Source of the DNA: Candidatus Methylomirabilis sp.
Lineage (GTDB): Bacteria; DYJV01
Direction of reading: 5' to 3'
DNA: 46,375 nucleotides
Assembly (NCBI GenBank): GCA_020722945.1
Contig: DYJV01000004.1
Span: 2,802-49,176 of the forward strand
In this document: positions 21,346 through 37,701 of the stretch, piece by piece
Numbering within the stretch: the stretch's first letter is position 1
Layout: every line of letters begins with the position of its first letter
Notes under the pieces: model-generated
What the model saw: the letters and a program-made list of their open reading frames with translations, nothing else
What the model was told of the DNA's origin: nothing
Databases searched by the model: none
Program-made: the position numbers and the translations under genes

Positions 21346-22331
21346 TGATATATAAAAAACTTTTTTTCCTGTTTATATGTTTACTTATATTCACTTCATC
21401 TGGATTTGCAATAACAAATAGCAATTCTACCAATAAGCAAAAAACAGTTTCGGAAGAGACTTTAAAATTTTGGGAAAGCACATTAAAATACGGAACATCC
21501 GCACAAAAAAAAAGCGTTCTCTCCGCTATTCAGGGAAATAATATTAAGGAAGCAGCGAATATAATTGTAAACCAATTACCTGAAGAAAAAAATCTGGTTG
21601 TGAAAAAATCAATGATATCAACACTTGTAGCCATAAGTAATCAGACAGTACGTCCATATATTCTAAATATGATAAAAAAGAGTAATCTGAATGAAGATAT
21701 GGAAGAATTTATCTTAAATGCAATAAGTCTCACAAAATTTAAGGAAACTGGCAAATATCTATTGAAATATCTTGATTCCAAGAGTATCACAATAAAAGAA
21801 TCAGCCCTACGTGCTATTGCAGCAGTTGAATACACGGAAGCAGTTCCTTTGATAATAAATAAATTGAAGGAAGAAAAATCAGACAGAATTAAAACTGAAA
21901 TGATTTTAACTTTAGCAGAGTTAAAATCTGAAAAAGCACAGACCACTCTAATATCAATTTTTACCAATAACAACGAGAAAAGTATCAACAGGGGTTTTGC
22001 TGCAACAGGACTTGGATATATTAAAAATGAACTGTCATATAAAATTCTGCGTGAATATTACGAAAAAGTTGATACCCAAATCAAGTTGAGAATCATTGAT
22101 TCTTTGGGTAATTTGGATAATAAACAATCTATTGATTTACTGATAGATTGTTTAACAGATGACGATAAAAATATCAGATATTATGCTGCACAATCTCTTG
22201 GTAAACTGAAAGCAAAAGAGGCAGTGGAAATATTAAAATATAAAAAAGATTACGATTTGGAAACAAATGTTAGAACTGCTGCTGATAAAGCATTAGAAAC
22301 TATTGTTGGTGTTACAAATGACAAAAAATGA
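21345..22331 (+). CDS. Exported HEAT-repeat protein
   Basis: A 328-residue protein with a signal peptide (about 1-22, FLFICLLIFTSSGFA then a cleavage-like site). The rest is built of helical repeats of about 30 residues: ESALRAIAAVEYTEAVPLI, AQTTLISIF and IDLLIDCLTDDDKNIRYYAA followed by QSLGKLKAKEAVEIL are typical HEAT/PBS-lyase-like units. Such solenoids bind other proteins; here the location is presumably periplasmic. The 3' end overlaps the RsbW-like gene by 14 bases, so the two are translationally coupled, although one product is exported and the other cytosolic. Regulation may involve the inverted repeat at the start codon. Confidence 0.8.
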   Translation: MIYKKLFFLFICLLIFTSSGFAITNSNSTNKQKTVSEETLKFWESTLKYGTSAQKKSVLSAIQGNNIKEAANIIVNQLPEEKNLVVKKSMISTLVAISNQTVRPYILNMIKKSNLNEDMEEFILNAISLTKFKETGKYLLKYLDSKSITIKESALRAIAAVEYTEAVPLIINKLKEEKSDRIKTEMILTLAELKSEKAQTTLISIFTNNNEKSINRGFAATGLGYIKNELSYKILREYYEKVDTQIKLRIIDSLGNLDNKQSIDLLIDCLTDDDKNIRYYAAQSLGKLKAKEAVEILKYKKDYDLETNVRTAADKALETIVGVTNDKK

Positions 22332-23295
22332 TACGGAAAACAGAAAAGTATTAAATTTTATAGCAGACATTAATTCTACTCTGGAAGAGATATCTGTTTA
22401 CTTAGGCAAGAAACACAAAATTCATCTTACACTTCTAAATAATATAAAATCAAATTACTCAATAATAGCCTTAAAAAAGAAATCAGACTTAATAATGAAA
22501 ATTATAAATAAAAATTTTATCAGTCCGTCTATAATTGATAATGATTATTTCAGGAGATTACGAAATTTTATATTCTCTGATTTGTCTATTTTCGTTGATA
22601 TGTTTAACTTGTTTTTTAATAAACTGTTGTCAAAATATAAAACAAATTTTTTTGGTAAAGATAAATGGGAAGATGAAAATCCAATAACCCTATTGAGCGC
22701 TTCTTACTTTTTATTAAACTTAAATTTTAGAAATCTCCGCAATATAGTTAATCGCTACTTTAATCTCGGATTTGAAGAACATAGTGAACTTCTAATCAAA
22801 AAAGATGATGATAAAATATGGGACACTTCTAAAATGAATTTCAAGGAGTTTATAAGCGATATTAAAAAAATTAAAGAATATGCTGAGGAGATATTGGATG
22901 AAATTGATATTGAGGAATTCAAAACAAATATGCTGATGAAACTTCAGATTAGCGAATTTATAAAGAATGCCATACGACATGGAAATAAACTTGATAAGAC
23001 CAAAAAAGTAAAAGTATGGTATGATATAAACCAGGATTATGCAAAACTTATAATAGAAGATGAGGGAGATGGATTCAAGGGAATTGAAGAATGGAACCGA
23101 TTTAATAAGTTACGGAATAAATATATTAAAGCACAGGATATTGGCAACGTTTTAAAATATGCTTCATACAGAACAAATGCGAGTATGGAAAATGATGGCG
23201 GAAATTTTCTTTTCTCCGCTTTAGAATATTGGGATAGCGGGGTTATTTTTAATGAAAAAAGAAATAAGGTTGTAGTGATAAAATATTTTTATTAA
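22318..23295 (+). CDS. RsbW-like ATP-binding (anti-sigma/serine kinase type) protein with long N-terminal region
   Basis: A 325-residue protein. Residues about 1-195 are helical and unrecognised. The C-terminal ~125 residues form a HATPase_c_2 domain: N-box ISEFIKNAIRHGNK, then IIEDEGDGFKGIEEWN, and after a helical insert NDGGNFLFSALEYW. The domain is closely similar to the protein at 23977 (N-box, DEGxGFK, SYRT, DGGN, KRNKVV). Such domains bind ATP and act on sigma factors or STAS proteins. ATG 22318 is used because the alternative start at 22303 is deeper inside the previous gene. It lies convergent to the STAS/RsbW pair across a miniature element. Confidence 0.8.
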   Translation: MTKNDTENRKVLNFIADINSTLEEISVYLGKKHKIHLTLLNNIKSNYSIIALKKKSDLIMKIINKNFISPSIIDNDYFRRLRNFIFSDLSIFVDMFNLFFNKLLSKYKTNFFGKDKWEDENPITLLSASYFLLNLNFRNLRNIVNRYFNLGFEEHSELLIKKDDDKIWDTSKMNFKEFISDIKKIKEYAEEILDEIDIEEFKTNMLMKLQISEFIKNAIRHGNKLDKTKKVKVWYDINQDYAKLIIEDEGDGFKGIEEWNRFNKLRNKYIKAQDIGNVLKYASYRTNASMENDGGNFLFSALEYWDSGVIFNEKRNKVVVIKYFY

Positions 23296-23663: not shown

Positions 23664-23984
23664 TTATATAGATTTATAGTATTTAAAAAACTGTCCTATT
23701 TTAGTAGCAGTAAAAACTTCAAGAACATCCGGAGAAATCGATAATATACCAAGTTCACCATTATCCGTATTTTTAAGCTCTTTCATAGCATCCATAAGAC
23801 AGCCCAAACCTGAACTATCAATATATGTTATATTTTTAAAATCCACTATTATCTTTTTGTACCCCTTACCAATACCATCTTTCAAAACTTCTTTCAGTTC
23901 AGCCACATTATTTATATCTATAGTTGCATCCTTCTTATCAACCCTAACTATAAAAAGATTTCCTTTGACTTCTGATTTAAACAT
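23664..23984 (-). CDS. STAS-domain anti-sigma factor antagonist
   Basis: A 106-residue single-domain STAS protein of the RsbV/SpoIIAA type. The phosphorylation loop reads NITYIDSSGLGCLMDAM, with the conserved Asp-Ser pair. Such proteins bind an RsbW-like kinase when unphosphorylated and free a sigma factor or other target; phosphorylation on the Ser ends this. Its start overlaps the RsbW-like gene by 8 bases, strong evidence that these two are partners. GGAAAGG lies just before the ATG. Confidence 0.93.
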   Translation of the reverse strand: MFKSEVKGNLFIVRVDKKDATIDINNVAELKEVLKDGIGKGYKKIIVDFKNITYIDSSGLGCLMDAMKELKNTDNGELGILSISPDVLEVFTATKIGQFFKYYKSI

Positions 23985-24531
23985 TTGCCTTTCCTTTTAC
24001 ATCATTTTCACTATAAATTTTAACACAAACAACTTTATTTCTTTTGTTATTATATATCATCCCACCATTCCAAAATTCAATAGCAGCAAAAAGTGCATTA
24101 CCACCATCTACTTCTGTACTTTCATCGGTTCTATAAGAAATATACTGAAGCATCTCATCAAATTTATTTTCAAGAAAACATTTTGTTCTCTTAGCGTTGA
24201 ACTCATTCCATTCTTCTAAATTTTTAAACCCCTCGCCTTCATCTTCCACTATAATACGCACCATCTTTTTTTTACGATTAAATTCCCACCATACTTTCAC
24301 CTTTTTATTCTTATCATTCTTGTTACCATGAACAATAGCATTCTTAATCACTTCGCTAATTTGCTGCTCAAGCAAATTGCCCATTTTAAACTCTTCCGGA
24401 GAATCAAAGGCTATTATCGTGGCATAATTCCTTATCTGTTTATATTTACTCGGAAATTCTCTATACTTCATTCCTTTGATGTCAAAATATTTACTGTGCT
24501 CATCTACCAACAATTTTCTAATCTGATTCAT
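23977..24531 (-). CDS. RsbW-like ATP-binding anti-sigma/serine kinase
   Basis: A 184-residue protein of the HATPase_c_2 (RsbW/SpoIIAB) type. N-box ISEVIKNAIVHGNK and G1-like VEDEGEGFKNLEEWNEFN are clear. Then comes a roughly 35-residue insert ending YISYRTDEST, and a last block DGGNALFAAIEFWNGG and NKRNKVVCVK. The insert and the DGGNALFAA block are not part of classical RsbW, but are shared with the protein at 22318. I chose ATG 24531 because GGAG lies six bases upstream; the ATG at 24543 has the ribosome-binding sequence too close. It is co-transcribed with the STAS gene. Confidence 0.85.
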   Translation of the reverse strand: MNQIRKLLVDEHSKYFDIKGMKYREFPSKYKQIRNYATIIAFDSPEEFKMGNLLEQQISEVIKNAIVHGNKNDKNKKVKVWWEFNRKKKMVRIIVEDEGEGFKNLEEWNEFNAKRTKCFLENKFDEMLQYISYRTDESTEVDGGNALFAAIEFWNGGMIYNNKRNKVVCVKIYSENDVKGKANV

Positions 24532-24621
24532 ACGCAACTCCATCCTTTTACATTAGAATATCTATTATCAATATATTGAAAATTTTTAACAAGAAGTCAG
24601 GTTTGTTTAAGAATCATCTTT

Positions 24622-33336: not shown

Positions 33337-34254
33337 ATGAAAAAAATAGATAAGAAAGATTTAATCAGTGTTAAAGATTTAACAATAGAAGAAATATACA
33401 GAATACTCGATTTAACAAAGAAACTTAAAAAAAAGAATAAAAAACTGTTGAAAAATAAGACACTCGGATTAATATTTGAAAAACCGTCAACAAGAACAAG
33501 GGTCTCATTTGAAATTGGAATATATCAATTAGGGGGCATAGGTTTATATCTGAATAGAAACGATTTACAGATTGGAAGAGGAGAGTCAGTTAAAGATACT
33601 GCTATGACACTTTCACGCTATCTTGATGGGATAATGATAAGAGCATTTTCACATTCAATGGTAGAAGAACTTGCTCAATATGCAACAATTCCTGTTATAA
33701 ACGGACTTACTGACTTATTGCATCCCTGTCAGGCATTATCAGACTTCTTTACAATTGTTGAATACAAAAAGAGATTGTCAAATCTTAAAATCGGATTTAT
33801 AGGCGATGGTAACAATGTTGCTAATTCTTTGATAATAACCGCAGCTAAAACAGGCGCCAATATAACTGTTGCTTCTCCTGAAGGATACACTGTTAAAGAT
33901 GAGATAAAATCTATCGGTAATGATATTGCCAAAAAAAGCGGGAGTAGAATTGAATTTACTTCCGACCCCGCCGAATCTGCCAAAAATGCAGATGTCCTTT
34001 ATACAGATGTGTGGGTCTCAATGGGACAAGAACAGGAAAAAAGTAAAAGAAATGAAATTTTTCAGAAATATCAAATAAATTCTTCATTACTTAAATATGC
34101 AAAAGATGATGTTATAGTTATGCATTGTTTGCCTGCTCATAGAGGAGAAGAAATAACTGATGAGGTTATTGATGGCAACTATTCCGTTGTATTCGATCAG
34201 GCTGAAAATAGACTCCATACTCAAAAAGCAATTATGGCACTCCTTATGAAATAA
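33337..34254 (+). CDS. argF: Ornithine carbamoyltransferase
   Basis: A 305-residue enzyme that makes citrulline from ornithine and carbamoyl phosphate. The carbamoyl-phosphate loop FEKPSTRTRVSFE, HPCQALSDF and the ornithine-specific HCLPAHRGEE late loop are all present, which separates it from aspartate carbamoyltransferase. Length is normal. GCGAGG lies seven bases before the ATG. No other arginine gene is adjacent; instead a CHAT gene begins 24 bases after its stop. Confidence 0.97.
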   Translation: MKKIDKKDLISVKDLTIEEIYRILDLTKKLKKKNKKLLKNKTLGLIFEKPSTRTRVSFEIGIYQLGGIGLYLNRNDLQIGRGESVKDTAMTLSRYLDGIMIRAFSHSMVEELAQYATIPVINGLTDLLHPCQALSDFFTIVEYKKRLSNLKIGFIGDGNNVANSLIITAAKTGANITVASPEGYTVKDEIKSIGNDIAKKSGSRIEFTSDPAESAKNADVLYTDVWVSMGQEQEKSKRNEIFQKYQINSSLLKYAKDDVIVMHCLPAHRGEEITDEVIDGNYSVVFDQAENRLHTQKAIMALLMK

Positions 34255-34278: not shown

Positions 34279-35571
34279 TTGAATTTTTTTATCATAAAAA
34301 TCGAAAAGTATATAGACCTGAAAAAGAAATTTTTTACATCAGAGAAACAGTTAAAACAATTTTCAAATATACTATTTCTTATCTCCGAATCTCAAAAAAT
34401 TTATGGTGGATTCCAAGTTGTCCGTGTAAAAAAAGAAAATAATATATATCGCCTCTATCACGAAAATAGACTAAAACTTCGCCGAGGAGTCCCCCTTAAA
34501 TCTATAAAAAATATACTTCATCTTAAACTTTCAAGCCAAAAAGTAACAAAAATAGAGAAAAAAACTTTTGTCAAAATTCTACAAATGCTTAATAAGATAA
34601 ACTTCCCCCAACTTGCTTCTGATATTCTCTATATCGATATGAATAACAACAACTTGAATATAAGGTATTTAAAAAATTACACTGAAATCCAAATTGTTCG
34701 GGAATCAATTAGCGTTGATAAAAAAATCCTTGATAATGATACAGAAAGATTTGTCAATATAATCAAAAATAAGTCCGATATTGCTCTTATTAAAAACATG
34801 GGATTCAAACTCTTCAAATTATTTTCAAAATCAAATATATTCTCTAAAAATATCTTATATAATCGCTATATCATTATTACCAGTAATAGCAGTATGGTCA
34901 CAAAAATACCTTTTGAGTTGATATATGATGGCGCAAATTTTTTCATAGAAAAAATAAGCCTTGGAAGAGGTATATATCTTGATAGTCTGCCTTATGAAGC
35001 ATTTAACCTCAACCAAAAATCCAATATAACAATTCTTCTCCCTAAATATAAAAATATACATTTCACTGCGAAAAAAATCTCTGCCCTGTTCGCAAATAAA
35101 AATTTGAACTATACAATCTATAACAAAAAACTTAAAACACAGGAGTTTGTCCATATATGCGAAAATTCTAAAATACTCTATTTTGGCGGACATTCTATAT
35201 TTGATAAAACCAGAAAAGATTATGGCTTGAAATTATCTGATAGTGATATTTTCTATCTTCAGGATTTTCAGCTATGCTCATCTCTGCCAGAATTTATAAT
35301 ATTCCACGCCTGCTTCGAAAATAAATTTTTTCAATATATAGAAAAAAAACTGCATCTATTATTTAAAAATGGCACCAAAAATATACTGATGCCTTTTATG
35401 GAAATTCCAATCGAATCGGACAGCTTTATCCAATTCTTTATGAAAAAACTTCTCGCAGGACATCCAATAGGCGACGCTTTCGAATACTCTGCCATAAATG
35501 GAATAAAAACCAACCAGCATGATTGGAAATTCTTCAGACTATATGGAGACCCTAAATTAAAATATTTCTAA
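34279..35571 (+). CDS. CHAT-domain (caspase-like) protease homologue
   Basis: A 430-residue protein. The N-terminal ~180 residues are Lys-rich and unrecognised. The C-terminal ~200 residues are a CHAT domain: an early strand YIIITSNSSMVTKIPFELI, catalytic His305 in ILYFGGHS, and catalytic Cys345 in IIFHACFEN. A late GHPIGDAFEYSAIN plus LYGDPKLKYF ends the fold, as in clan CD (caspase/separase-like) peptidases. Both catalytic residues are in place, so the protein may be active. Unlike most CHAT proteins it has no clear TPR array. The start is TTG 34279 with CGGAG seven bases upstream; there is no ATG in frame nearby. The next genes encode a sigma-like and an anti-sigma-like protein, which suggests regulated cleavage of one of them. 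Confidence 0.8.
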   Translation: MNFFIIKIEKYIDLKKKFFTSEKQLKQFSNILFLISESQKIYGGFQVVRVKKENNIYRLYHENRLKLRRGVPLKSIKNILHLKLSSQKVTKIEKKTFVKILQMLNKINFPQLASDILYIDMNNNNLNIRYLKNYTEIQIVRESISVDKKILDNDTERFVNIIKNKSDIALIKNMGFKLFKLFSKSNIFSKNILYNRYIIITSNSSMVTKIPFELIYDGANFFIEKISLGRGIYLDSLPYEAFNLNQKSNITILLPKYKNIHFTAKKISALFANKNLNYTIYNKKLKTQEFVHICENSKILYFGGHSIFDKTRKDYGLKLSDSDIFYLQDFQLCSSLPEFIIFHACFENKFFQYIEKKLHLLFKNGTKNILMPFMEIPIESDSFIQFFMKKLLAGHPIGDAFEYSAINGIKTNQHDWKFFRLYGDPKLKYF

Positions 35572-35612
35572 AATTTTTTGGAAAAATTTAAACTTTTTTT
35601 TGTATATAATAT

Positions 35613-36500
35613 ATGAGAGTAGATGAATTAAAAATTAAAAGATTAATTGCAGATTATTTGAAAAACAATGAGAATGAAAATATCTTATTTGATATTATAA
35701 AGGAGTTGAGTGAAATGGTATATAATTACCCCAGAATAGTATTTAGAAAAGATTTGGATACTTGCTCTGATTTCTACATATATTTCATAAGCGACATAAA
35801 AAAAATTATATTAAAATATAACTCACAATTGGCAAACTTTAATACTTATCTTAATATCGCATTAAAATCAAGATATATAAACTGGTATAATAAAACAATC
35901 TCAAAGCAGCAACTAAATGAGGTCCCATTGGAAAACTTAAATAATGAAAACATCCCATCACTCGAAGATAAAATTACGTATAATATTTATATTAATAAAC
36001 AATATGATAATATAAATTCAGAACTAAAATCCCTGATTAATAGTATATTAAAAAAACTGCCACAAAAAGAGATGCTTATAGTTAAACTTCTCTTTTACCC
36101 AATTGATTCAGAAACTTTAAAAATACTCTCAGCCCATCTGAATACATCCCTGAAAATGACATACAAAAAATATATGGCAACCTATCATAAGCATAACCTG
36201 ATTGAAAAACAGAATGAATTAAGAGAAAAAATTTATAAGACTGAAAATAGAATCTATGCATTAAAGAATAAAATAGATAAACTCAAAAAGCAAAACAAGA
36301 GTTATAAATCAGTCGCTAATTTCAAACAGAGACTGGAATCTATACTATCAAATCAACGGCTTAAACTCTATAAAAATAATTATGTGATGAGCTTTAAAGG
36401 AATAGAAGAACTGCTAAAAATATCAAAAAGTGAAATTTATACAAAATATAAAAAATTAAATCAAAAATTGCAACAAGAGTTATCACAATATGCAATATAA
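35613..36500 (+). CDS. Divergent sigma-factor-like protein
   Basis: A 295-residue protein. Residues about 30-90 (NYPRIVFRKDLDTCSDFYIY, then LANFNTYLNIALKSRYINWY) have the look of a sigma region 2 core helix bundle in the order of sigma70-family factors. Residues about 150-195 contain SILKKLPQKEMLIVKLLF followed by a helix-turn-helix-like LKILSAHLNTSLKMTYKKY, as in region 4. After a coiled-coil segment (about 196-240) comes a second HTH-like end (SFKGIEELLKISKSEIYTKY). The identification is by arrangement rather than by strong identity. An anti-sigma-like zinc-finger gene starts 16 bp downstream and a CHAT protease gene lies 41 bp upstream, which supports the call. I know a few similar proteins with D-x-x-x-D-F-Y-x-Y-F in spirochaetes, also annotated only weakly. 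Confidence 0.55.
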   Translation: MRVDELKIKRLIADYLKNNENENILFDIIKELSEMVYNYPRIVFRKDLDTCSDFYIYFISDIKKIILKYNSQLANFNTYLNIALKSRYINWYNKTISKQQLNEVPLENLNNENIPSLEDKITYNIYINKQYDNINSELKSLINSILKKLPQKEMLIVKLLFYPIDSETLKILSAHLNTSLKMTYKKYMATYHKHNLIEKQNELREKIYKTENRIYALKNKIDKLKKQNKSYKSVANFKQRLESILSNQRLKLYKNNYVMSFKGIEELLKISKSEIYTKYKKLNQKLQQELSQYAI

Positions 36501-36516
36501 AGGCAGGTTTCCAATT

Positions 36517-37152
36517 ATGAATAAAAAATGTAGATATTTTGATGAAAATAGGATGGCAGCATATATTGAGAACCGATTAAATCCCGTAGAAAGAGAAGCA
36601 TACGAAGAGCATCTATTCCAGTGTGATTACTGCCTAAATATATACTTTAATATGGAACAAGAGATAAAACTAATTAAACAAGCAAGACCGAAAATAATCC
36701 CTGAAAACTTACTTGAAAAGGCTATAAATAAAACACTCCCGAATCGCTTTAAAAAAAGAATTGTAAAAAATTTTTCTGAAATTATTATAAAAATGTATGA
36801 AAAAGGAATGGAAATATTAAAAACCGTAAACATCACAAATCTAACTCCTGTTCCTATCCAGGCAGTTCGAGGCAATAAATCAACATTATTAAAAAAGATA
36901 ATTTTAGAAAGTGATGTAAAAGGGATTTTATATAAAATGTTAATAGAATTTTATACTTACAATAGAATAAAAATCAAACTCAATTTTTTACAAATTATGG
37001 ATTCATTAAAAAATGAAAATATACAATTAGAAAGTCCTGAAGGGGAAATAGTTCACTCATTCAAATCCGAAGCCCTTTTCGATGATTTATCTAAAGGAAC
37101 TTATAAAATAAAACTTAAAAACATCACACTTTCAAAAATCAATATAAAATAG
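36517..37152 (+). CDS. Zinc-finger anti-sigma-like protein
   Basis: A 211-residue protein with an N-terminal ZAS/zf-HC2 motif: DENRMAAYIENRLNPVEREA then EEHLFQCDYCLNIY, giving H-x3-C-x2-C at His32, Cys36 and Cys39, with Cys5 a possible fourth ligand. This fold holds sigma factors of many groups. No clear membrane segment follows; the middle is Lys-rich and the last ~60 residues look beta-stranded. So it would be a soluble anti-sigma factor, not a membrane-spanning one. I chose ATG 36517, preceded by AAAGG and CAGG, over the ATG at 36490 that overlaps the sigma-like gene. Position right after the sigma-like gene supports a pair. Confidence 0.7.
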   Translation: MNKKCRYFDENRMAAYIENRLNPVEREAYEEHLFQCDYCLNIYFNMEQEIKLIKQARPKIIPENLLEKAINKTLPNRFKKRIVKNFSEIIIKMYEKGMEILKTVNITNLTPVPIQAVRGNKSTLLKKIILESDVKGILYKMLIEFYTYNRIKIKLNFLQIMDSLKNENIQLESPEGEIVHSFKSEALFDDLSKGTYKIKLKNITLSKINIK

Positions 37153-37164
37153 CGGAGTTACAAT

Positions 37165-37701
37165 ATGAATATAAAAAAAATTGAATCAAAGCAGATACAC
37201 AAAGGTAAATATATCTCATTTTACAGTGATAAAATATTAATAAATAATTCTATAAAAGCGGTTCGGGAATATATGACATATCCGCCTGCTGTTGGGATTA
37301 TTCCTGTTCTTGATAATGGTAACATTGTTATGGTAGAACAGTATAGATATACAAACGACATCACTTCACTTGAAATTCCAGCAGGCAAGATAGCACCAAA
37401 CGAAGACCTTAAAATAGCATCTGTCCGTGAATTAGAAGAAGAGACGGGCTTTAAATGTTCTCCTGAAGATTTAAAGCAGATTTATACTTACACGCCTGCA
37501 ATATCATACTCAACTGAAAAACTCACTCTATTTATTGCAAAAAATTTAAAAAAAGGAAAAGCAAAACCAGATGAAGATGAGTTTATCAATGTAATCACGC
37601 TTCCTGTATCTAAAATTATGGAAAAAATAGATAATAACGAAATTATGGATAGTAAAACAGTATTAGCAATGCTTTTATATATCAGATATGAAAAGATTTA
37701 A
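37165..37701 (+). CDS. NUDIX hydrolase (ADP-ribose pyrophosphatase type)
   Basis: A 178-residue NUDIX protein with the canonical box G-x5-E-x7-R-E-L-x-E-E-x-G-F, seen as GKIAPNEDLKIASVRELEEE then TGF. An upstream VEQYRY and LEIPAGKI pattern is typical of the ADP-ribose pyrophosphatase (NudF) group, which cleaves ADP-ribose to AMP and ribose-5-phosphate. It probably protects against toxic ADP-ribose. Its end overlaps the NusG-II gene by 14 bases. GCGGAG lies six bases before the start. Confidence 0.93.
   Translation: MNIKKIESKQIHKGKYISFYSDKILINNSIKAVREYMTYPPAVGIIPVLDNGNIVMVEQYRYTNDITSLEIPAGKIAPNEDLKIASVRELEEETGFKCSPEDLKQIYTYTPAISYSTEKLTLFIAKNLKKGKAKPDEDEFINVITLPVSKIMEKIDNNEIMDSKTVLAMLLYIRYEKI

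Follow-up and report, generated by a model that had tools for sequence, protein, structure and literature searches.

A conserved trio of CHAT protease, ECF-type sigma factor, and soluble zinc-finger anti-sigma-like genes outside CRISPR loci

CHAT proteases are abundant in bacteria, and few of their substrates are known. Does the locus described here, in which a gene for a CHAT-like protein is followed on the same strand by genes for a divergent sigma-like protein and a zinc-finger anti-sigma-like protein, encode a switch in which such a protease controls transcription? The precedent comes from type III-E CRISPR, where the CHAT protease Csx29 cuts Csx30, an inhibitor of an ECF sigma factor, resulting in release of the sigma factor (PMC10028731). 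We analyzed the locus within its window, a 46,375-nucleotide stretch of DNA from Candidatus Methylomirabilis sp., and compared it with related loci in other genomes.

Results

Layout of the Locus

The gene coordinates of the initial annotation, together with its intergenic gaps of 41 and 16 bp, held when the open reading frames (ORFs) were checked (Table 1). The third ORF, which ends at 37152, has possible starts at 36490 and 36517; the latter, from which the 16-bp gap is counted, is preferred because homologues support it. The trio is embedded in a longer same-strand run, with argF 24 bp upstream and a NUDIX hydrolase gene 12 bp downstream, and the genome contains one sigma factor and one CHAT protein of these types. 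The surroundings had been described as free of CRISPR and Cas genes, which agrees with our inspection of the window ORFs, among which no Cas-like gene, Cas7-11 included, was evident; a cas1 gene lies elsewhere in the same genome, on contig 57 (1064-1924), far from the window. Two related proteins that by eye resemble RsbW-type ATPases are encoded in opposite orientation at 22303-23295 (+) and 23977-24543 (-) of the window.

Table 1. Features of the trio and its flanks (positions in the window)
Feature	Positions	Strand	Remarks
argF (ornithine carbamoyltransferase), syntenic flank outside the system	33337..34254	+	counterpart at the equivalent position in L188, 70% identity
CHAT (caspase-like) protease gene	34279..35571	+	430 aa; TTG start, GGAG ~7 bp upstream
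CHAT N-terminal domain, candidate sensor	34279..34580	+	weakly DCD/EVE (PUA-like) in homologues
Catalytic His305 (predicted)	35191-35193	+	invariant column in family alignments
Catalytic Cys345 (predicted)	35311-35313	+	invariant column in family alignments
Divergent ECF-type sigma factor gene	35613..36500	+	295 aa; TIGR02937, family profile, alignment
Sigma region 4, probable C-terminal helix-turn-helix (aa ~258-290)	36384..36482	+	alignment; TIGR02937 match to aa 290
Soluble zinc-finger (zf-HC2) anti-sigma-like gene	36517..37152	+	211 aa; Pfam, profile matches, AlphaFold2
H-x3-C-x2-C zinc ligand motif HLFQCDYC (His32, Cys36, Cys39)	36610..36633	+	near invariant, 75 homologues
Linker aa 86-118, predicted disordered, ending in Arg118 (36868-36870), candidate CHAT cut site	36772..36870	+	
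C-terminal beta-sandwich domain aa 126-210	36892..37146	+	AlphaFold2 model
NUDIX hydrolase, syntenic flank	37165..37701	+	counterpart at the equivalent position in L188, 58% identity

The First Gene Encodes a Predicted CHAT Protease

When searched by itself against Pfam, the window CHAT protein gave no match, CHAT (PF12770) included, and its identity therefore rests on its homologues. A genuine CHAT protein from a different phylum is matched at E = 8e-7, and full-length homologues exceed the PF12770 cut-off with E values down to 8.6e-14. A profile of the homologues matches, in the PDB, SAVED-CHAT (8tl0, the best match), the Craspase TPR-CHAT protein, and separase. The dyad assigned to the protein at the outset, His305 and Cys345, coincides with invariant alignment columns: both residues are conserved in 89 of 89 homologues, and in an eight-member alignment GH and C are invariant. 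With this dyad intact, the product of the first gene is predicted to be an active cysteine protease. The Pfam scan gave no TPR match, bearing out the initial remark that the usual TPR array is missing, and a hydropathy scan revealed no membrane helix in the window CHAT.

The N-terminal domain of the CHAT relatives matches Dev_Cell_Death (PF10539) weakly in four of six cases (best E = 3.6e-4) and EVE (PF01878) weakly in one (E = 1.3e-4), both falling under the curated cut-off in full-length scans; no DCD/EVE domain was detected in the window CHAT itself. We take PF10539 and PF01878 to be PUA-like domains, and a PUA-like N-terminal domain is perhaps the sensor of the CHAT protein, a lead rather than a finding. 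Fusions of a CHAT protease to weak matches of the plant Development and Cell Death or EVE domains were observed at L195, L198, L206, L207, and L232.

The Second and Third Genes Probably Encode a Sigma Factor and Its Inhibitor

The protein encoded from 35613 had been called a sigma factor from gene arrangement only. It now also has a TIGR02937 match (E = 6.3e-10 over aa 28-290; 38.9 bits, just below the 42.9 cut-off), and its homologues are unambiguous ECF sigma factors. The normal-length sigma factors of other trios clearly pass the sigma70-ECF model, and a family profile built with them matches SigW, SigE, and others. A phmmer search of the PDB with the window sigma alone returned nothing meaningful. 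The window sigma belongs to a long form of about 255-320 aa, and in the alignment a helical insertion splits its region 4. As judged from these matches, the gene at 35613 probably encodes a divergent sigma factor of the ECF type.

In the third protein, the H-x3-C-x2-C motif had been read correctly, and its assignment as anti-sigma-like gains support from a Pfam zf-HC2 match of 24.8 bits, above the 22.2 cut-off, and from matches of the family profile to RsiW, DdvA, ChrR, and RsrA in the PDB. A hydropathy scan found a membrane helix in 0 of 75 zinc proteins; the family is thus distinct from transmembrane anti-sigma factors of the RseA type, which are cleaved by RIP. Family membership therefore suggests a soluble anti-sigma factor as the product of the third gene.

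An AlphaFold2 model of the zinc protein (59-sequence alignment, mean pLDDT 79) consists of helices to approximately residue 98, a low-confidence segment spanning residues 86-118 (pLDDT<50), and a confident beta-sandwich from approximately residue 126. The C-terminal beta domain is common to the zinc homologues, among which weak CarboxypepD_reg/SpaA matches occur; a fold search of the PDB with the model gave no significant match. Arg118, at the end of the predicted linker, is kept in 74 of 75 zinc proteins, as strongly as the zinc ligands, and after clustering at 50% identity (55 representatives) its conservation is second only to that of Tyr196. The usual context of this arginine is P..P.[AV].[VIL]-R-[GS]. 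Two anti-sigma relatives, at L199 and L190, are without the zinc Cys residues, and the former keeps a linker motif, LTPLASRG.

The Trio Recurs across Unrelated Bacteria

The initial annotation had asked whether the three genes are neighbors elsewhere. They are, across several phyla and in two gene orders. In the window's own branch, all seven of the closest full-length relatives of the window CHAT adjoin a long sigma gene, and the zinc protein is also present beside six of them; at the seventh the contig ends. In one genome of another phylum (G396, locus L188), argF, CHAT, sigma, zinc protein, and NUDIX genes stand in the same order, with identities to the window of 70, 32, 33, 34, and 58%, respectively. 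Among 198 sampled genomes of the phylum of G018, whose members are spirochaete-like by sequence, a soluble CHAT was found in 89, a long sigma in 122, and both in 81 (Fisher p=2e-15, a test that ignores kinship). In group f268, putatively Brachyspira-like by sequence, CHAT and sigma are encoded at distant sites, as seen in the one genome read at both loci (G461).

A profile search of 386 genomes with the anti-sigma protein only (four seed rows) yielded eight new full-length relatives, of which seven adjoin sigma and CHAT genes. Two of these seven loci have the CHAT gene first and a thioredoxin-like gene between CHAT and sigma. The eighth relative, as in its congener G018, adjoins a gene for a PP2C phosphatase.

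A CHAT-core scan of 84,980 named species returned 198 relatives, of which 80 were kept. Neighbors were counted at the 64 of these 80 loci that have at least 1.5 kb upstream: the zinc protein is present in 55 and zinc protein plus sigma in 54. They define a second branch with normal-length sigma factors and often membrane-anchored CHAT proteins, in which the order is sigma–zinc protein–CHAT (54 of 64 loci) and which extends over Deltaproteobacteria/Desulfobacterales (Desulfobacterota), Nitrospirae (Nitrospirota), Nitrospinia, Omnitrophota, Schekmanbacteria, and Myxococcales (Myxococcota). Desulfonema magnum (L098) is a cultured relative that has the trio. Most CHAT proteins of this branch are longer, and 62 of 80 have a predicted membrane helix following the core; an N-terminal cyclase domain is present in some. 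At L010, Pfam places a class III cyclase domain at the N terminus of the CHAT protein, which also has a C-terminal membrane helix and a CsgG-like domain; those at L073 and L074 have a cyclase domain that by eye resembles that of L010 and likewise a C-terminal membrane helix.

The trio is thus a conserved neighborhood across unrelated bacteria. Its third member varies: the PP2C phosphatase gene takes the third place in the G018 group, which fits a view of the third gene as an exchangeable input, and several genomes encode the sigma and zinc proteins but lack a CHAT of this type. At L011, L076, and L181, all of one genus, a CBS-SpoIIE (PP2C) phosphatase gene comes after the sigma and zinc-protein genes, in the place of a CHAT gene.

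A Proposed Route from CHAT Protease to Sigma Factor

The explanation that we favor, and to which we give somewhat better than even chances, is that the CHAT protease relieves the inhibition exerted by a soluble zinc anti-sigma factor on an ECF-type sigma factor, most likely by a cut in the linker. In this view the three genes make up a single regulatory module. As expected from its family, the zinc-finger protein would hold the sigma factor inactive; the CHAT protein would sense a cytoplasmic cue, perhaps via its N-terminal PUA-like domain; once activated, it would relieve the anti-sigma factor, the likeliest way being a cut in the disordered linker that joins the sigma-binding and beta domains; and the freed sigma factor would bring RNA polymerase to a regulon. 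Such relief fits the locus because of the anatomy of the trio, the conserved catalytic residues, and the Csx29/Csx30 precedent.

The conserved arginine in the disordered linker is a plausible CHAT cut site, and Arg118-Gly119 would be the best candidate bond. The same arginine persists in relatives without a detected CHAT (G018, G165, G420, G409, and G472) and is absent at L198 although a CHAT gene adjoins; in this small set, linker arginine and CHAT presence show no clear association. We also considered the residue at W+1 in GTFW-x-V, acidic in 64 of 89 family members vs. 6 of ~29 other CHAT proteins, as the equivalent of the separase S1 Asp. This reading was dropped because the 7x8a alignment puts K670 at W+8, not W+1. 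At W+8, the position of the separase S1 Asp, the residue is not acidic in the family members checked, and the S1-pocket comparison thus gives no support for Arg specificity.

We consider it unlikely that the CHAT protein controls the anti-sigma factor non-proteolytically, through binding or scaffolding, or that it cuts another protein that in turn switches the anti-sigma factor. In favor of this alternative, a PP2C phosphatase can replace the third gene, the linker arginine is retained where no CHAT was detected, and the beta domain could serve for docking. However, the invariance of the catalytic dyad argues for a role of proteolysis. ECF sigma factors frequently transcribe neighboring genes, and the CHAT gene could accordingly be a target of the sigma factor; its product would then be an effector, for instance a protease that kills the cell, and not the activator of sigma. 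The sigma/anti-sigma pairs that stand alone in some genomes and the distant CHAT copies in group f268 genomes would suit such an arrangement, but in the window the CHAT gene leads the trio, where the short distance to argF leaves little room for a promoter, and L188 has the same order; we regard this alternative as quite improbable. We give still less credence to a CHAT protease that cuts or degrades the sigma factor itself and so keeps its level low. Proteolytic regulation of this kind was proposed for ECF54, whose context includes CHAT and other peptidases (PMC8999054), but ECF54 was described without an anti-sigma factor, whereas here one is conserved beside the sigma factor in most loci. 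Chance neighbors without a functional link are hardly credible, since recurrence of the trio in many unrelated genomes and in two gene orders contradicts them.

Relation to Known Systems

Relief of the anti-sigma factor by the CHAT protease, our preferred explanation, has parallels in several described systems. The trio places genes for a CHAT protease and an ECF-type sigma factor beside one for a putative sigma inhibitor, a combination known from type III-E Csx29/Csx30/CASP-sigma, and its homologue sigma factors match NF041236, below the cut-off of that model. In contrast to type III-E, the window has no evident Cas7-11, its CHAT lacks TPRs, the putative inhibitor is a zinc anti-sigma protein with a beta domain, not identified as Csx30, and the trio is widely distributed, with no tie to CRISPR at the loci read; PADLOC returned no match for the window proteins. 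Of the type III CRISPR proteases, the trio would share protease-gated anti-sigma/sigma logic with CalpL/CalpT/CalpS and has a CHAT protease in common with SAVED-CHAT (PMC11417357), but CalpL uses a Lon protease where the trio has a CHAT, and the cyclic-nucleotide SAVED sensor was not detected in the trio. In ECF54, an ECF sigma factor lies beside CHAT-domain proteins and proteolysis was proposed (PMC8999054); the sigma factor of the trio similarly adjoins a CHAT gene but has the zinc anti-sigma protein as an additional, conserved neighbor. The H-x3-C-x2-C sigma-binding domain is shared with the ZAS anti-sigma factors RsrA, ChrR, and RsiW, and the zinc protein is soluble, as are RsrA and ChrR, whereas RsiW is membrane bound; it differs from ZAS proteins in its C-terminal beta domain, its conserved Arg linker, and its coupling to CHAT.

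Protease-gated anti-sigma control in CRISPR (Csx29, CalpL) and the CHAT context of ECF54 are therefore already known. In its logic, the trio is a genuine and conserved relative of Csx29–Csx30–sigma that stands outside CRISPR. We found no description of a non-CRISPR sigma–zinc anti-sigma–CHAT trio in a full-text search of open-access papers, and the trio is apparently a widespread, undescribed switch whose novelty is provisional. If the anti-sigma protein is the substrate, CHAT-gated transcription would be a general signaling mode outside CRISPR, and each family locus would supply a candidate substrate of its own together with a candidate cut site, both directly testable.

A broader reading, tentative and in our view somewhat doubtful, is that non-CRISPR CHAT switches form a phylum-spanning family in which a sensor CHAT, soluble in the window's branch and fixed to the membrane in the second, would cut a soluble zinc anti-sigma factor after a conserved Arg and so release an ECF-type sigma factor. 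Type III-E CRISPR may then have drawn its Csx29–Csx30–sigma set from such a pool, which, if true, would offer a possible origin for the CRISPR-linked version. As a separate observation, chain B of PDB entry 8rot is a 991-aa CHAT protein with a zinc-finger anti-sigma-like N terminus (E=0.017), possibly a fused version.
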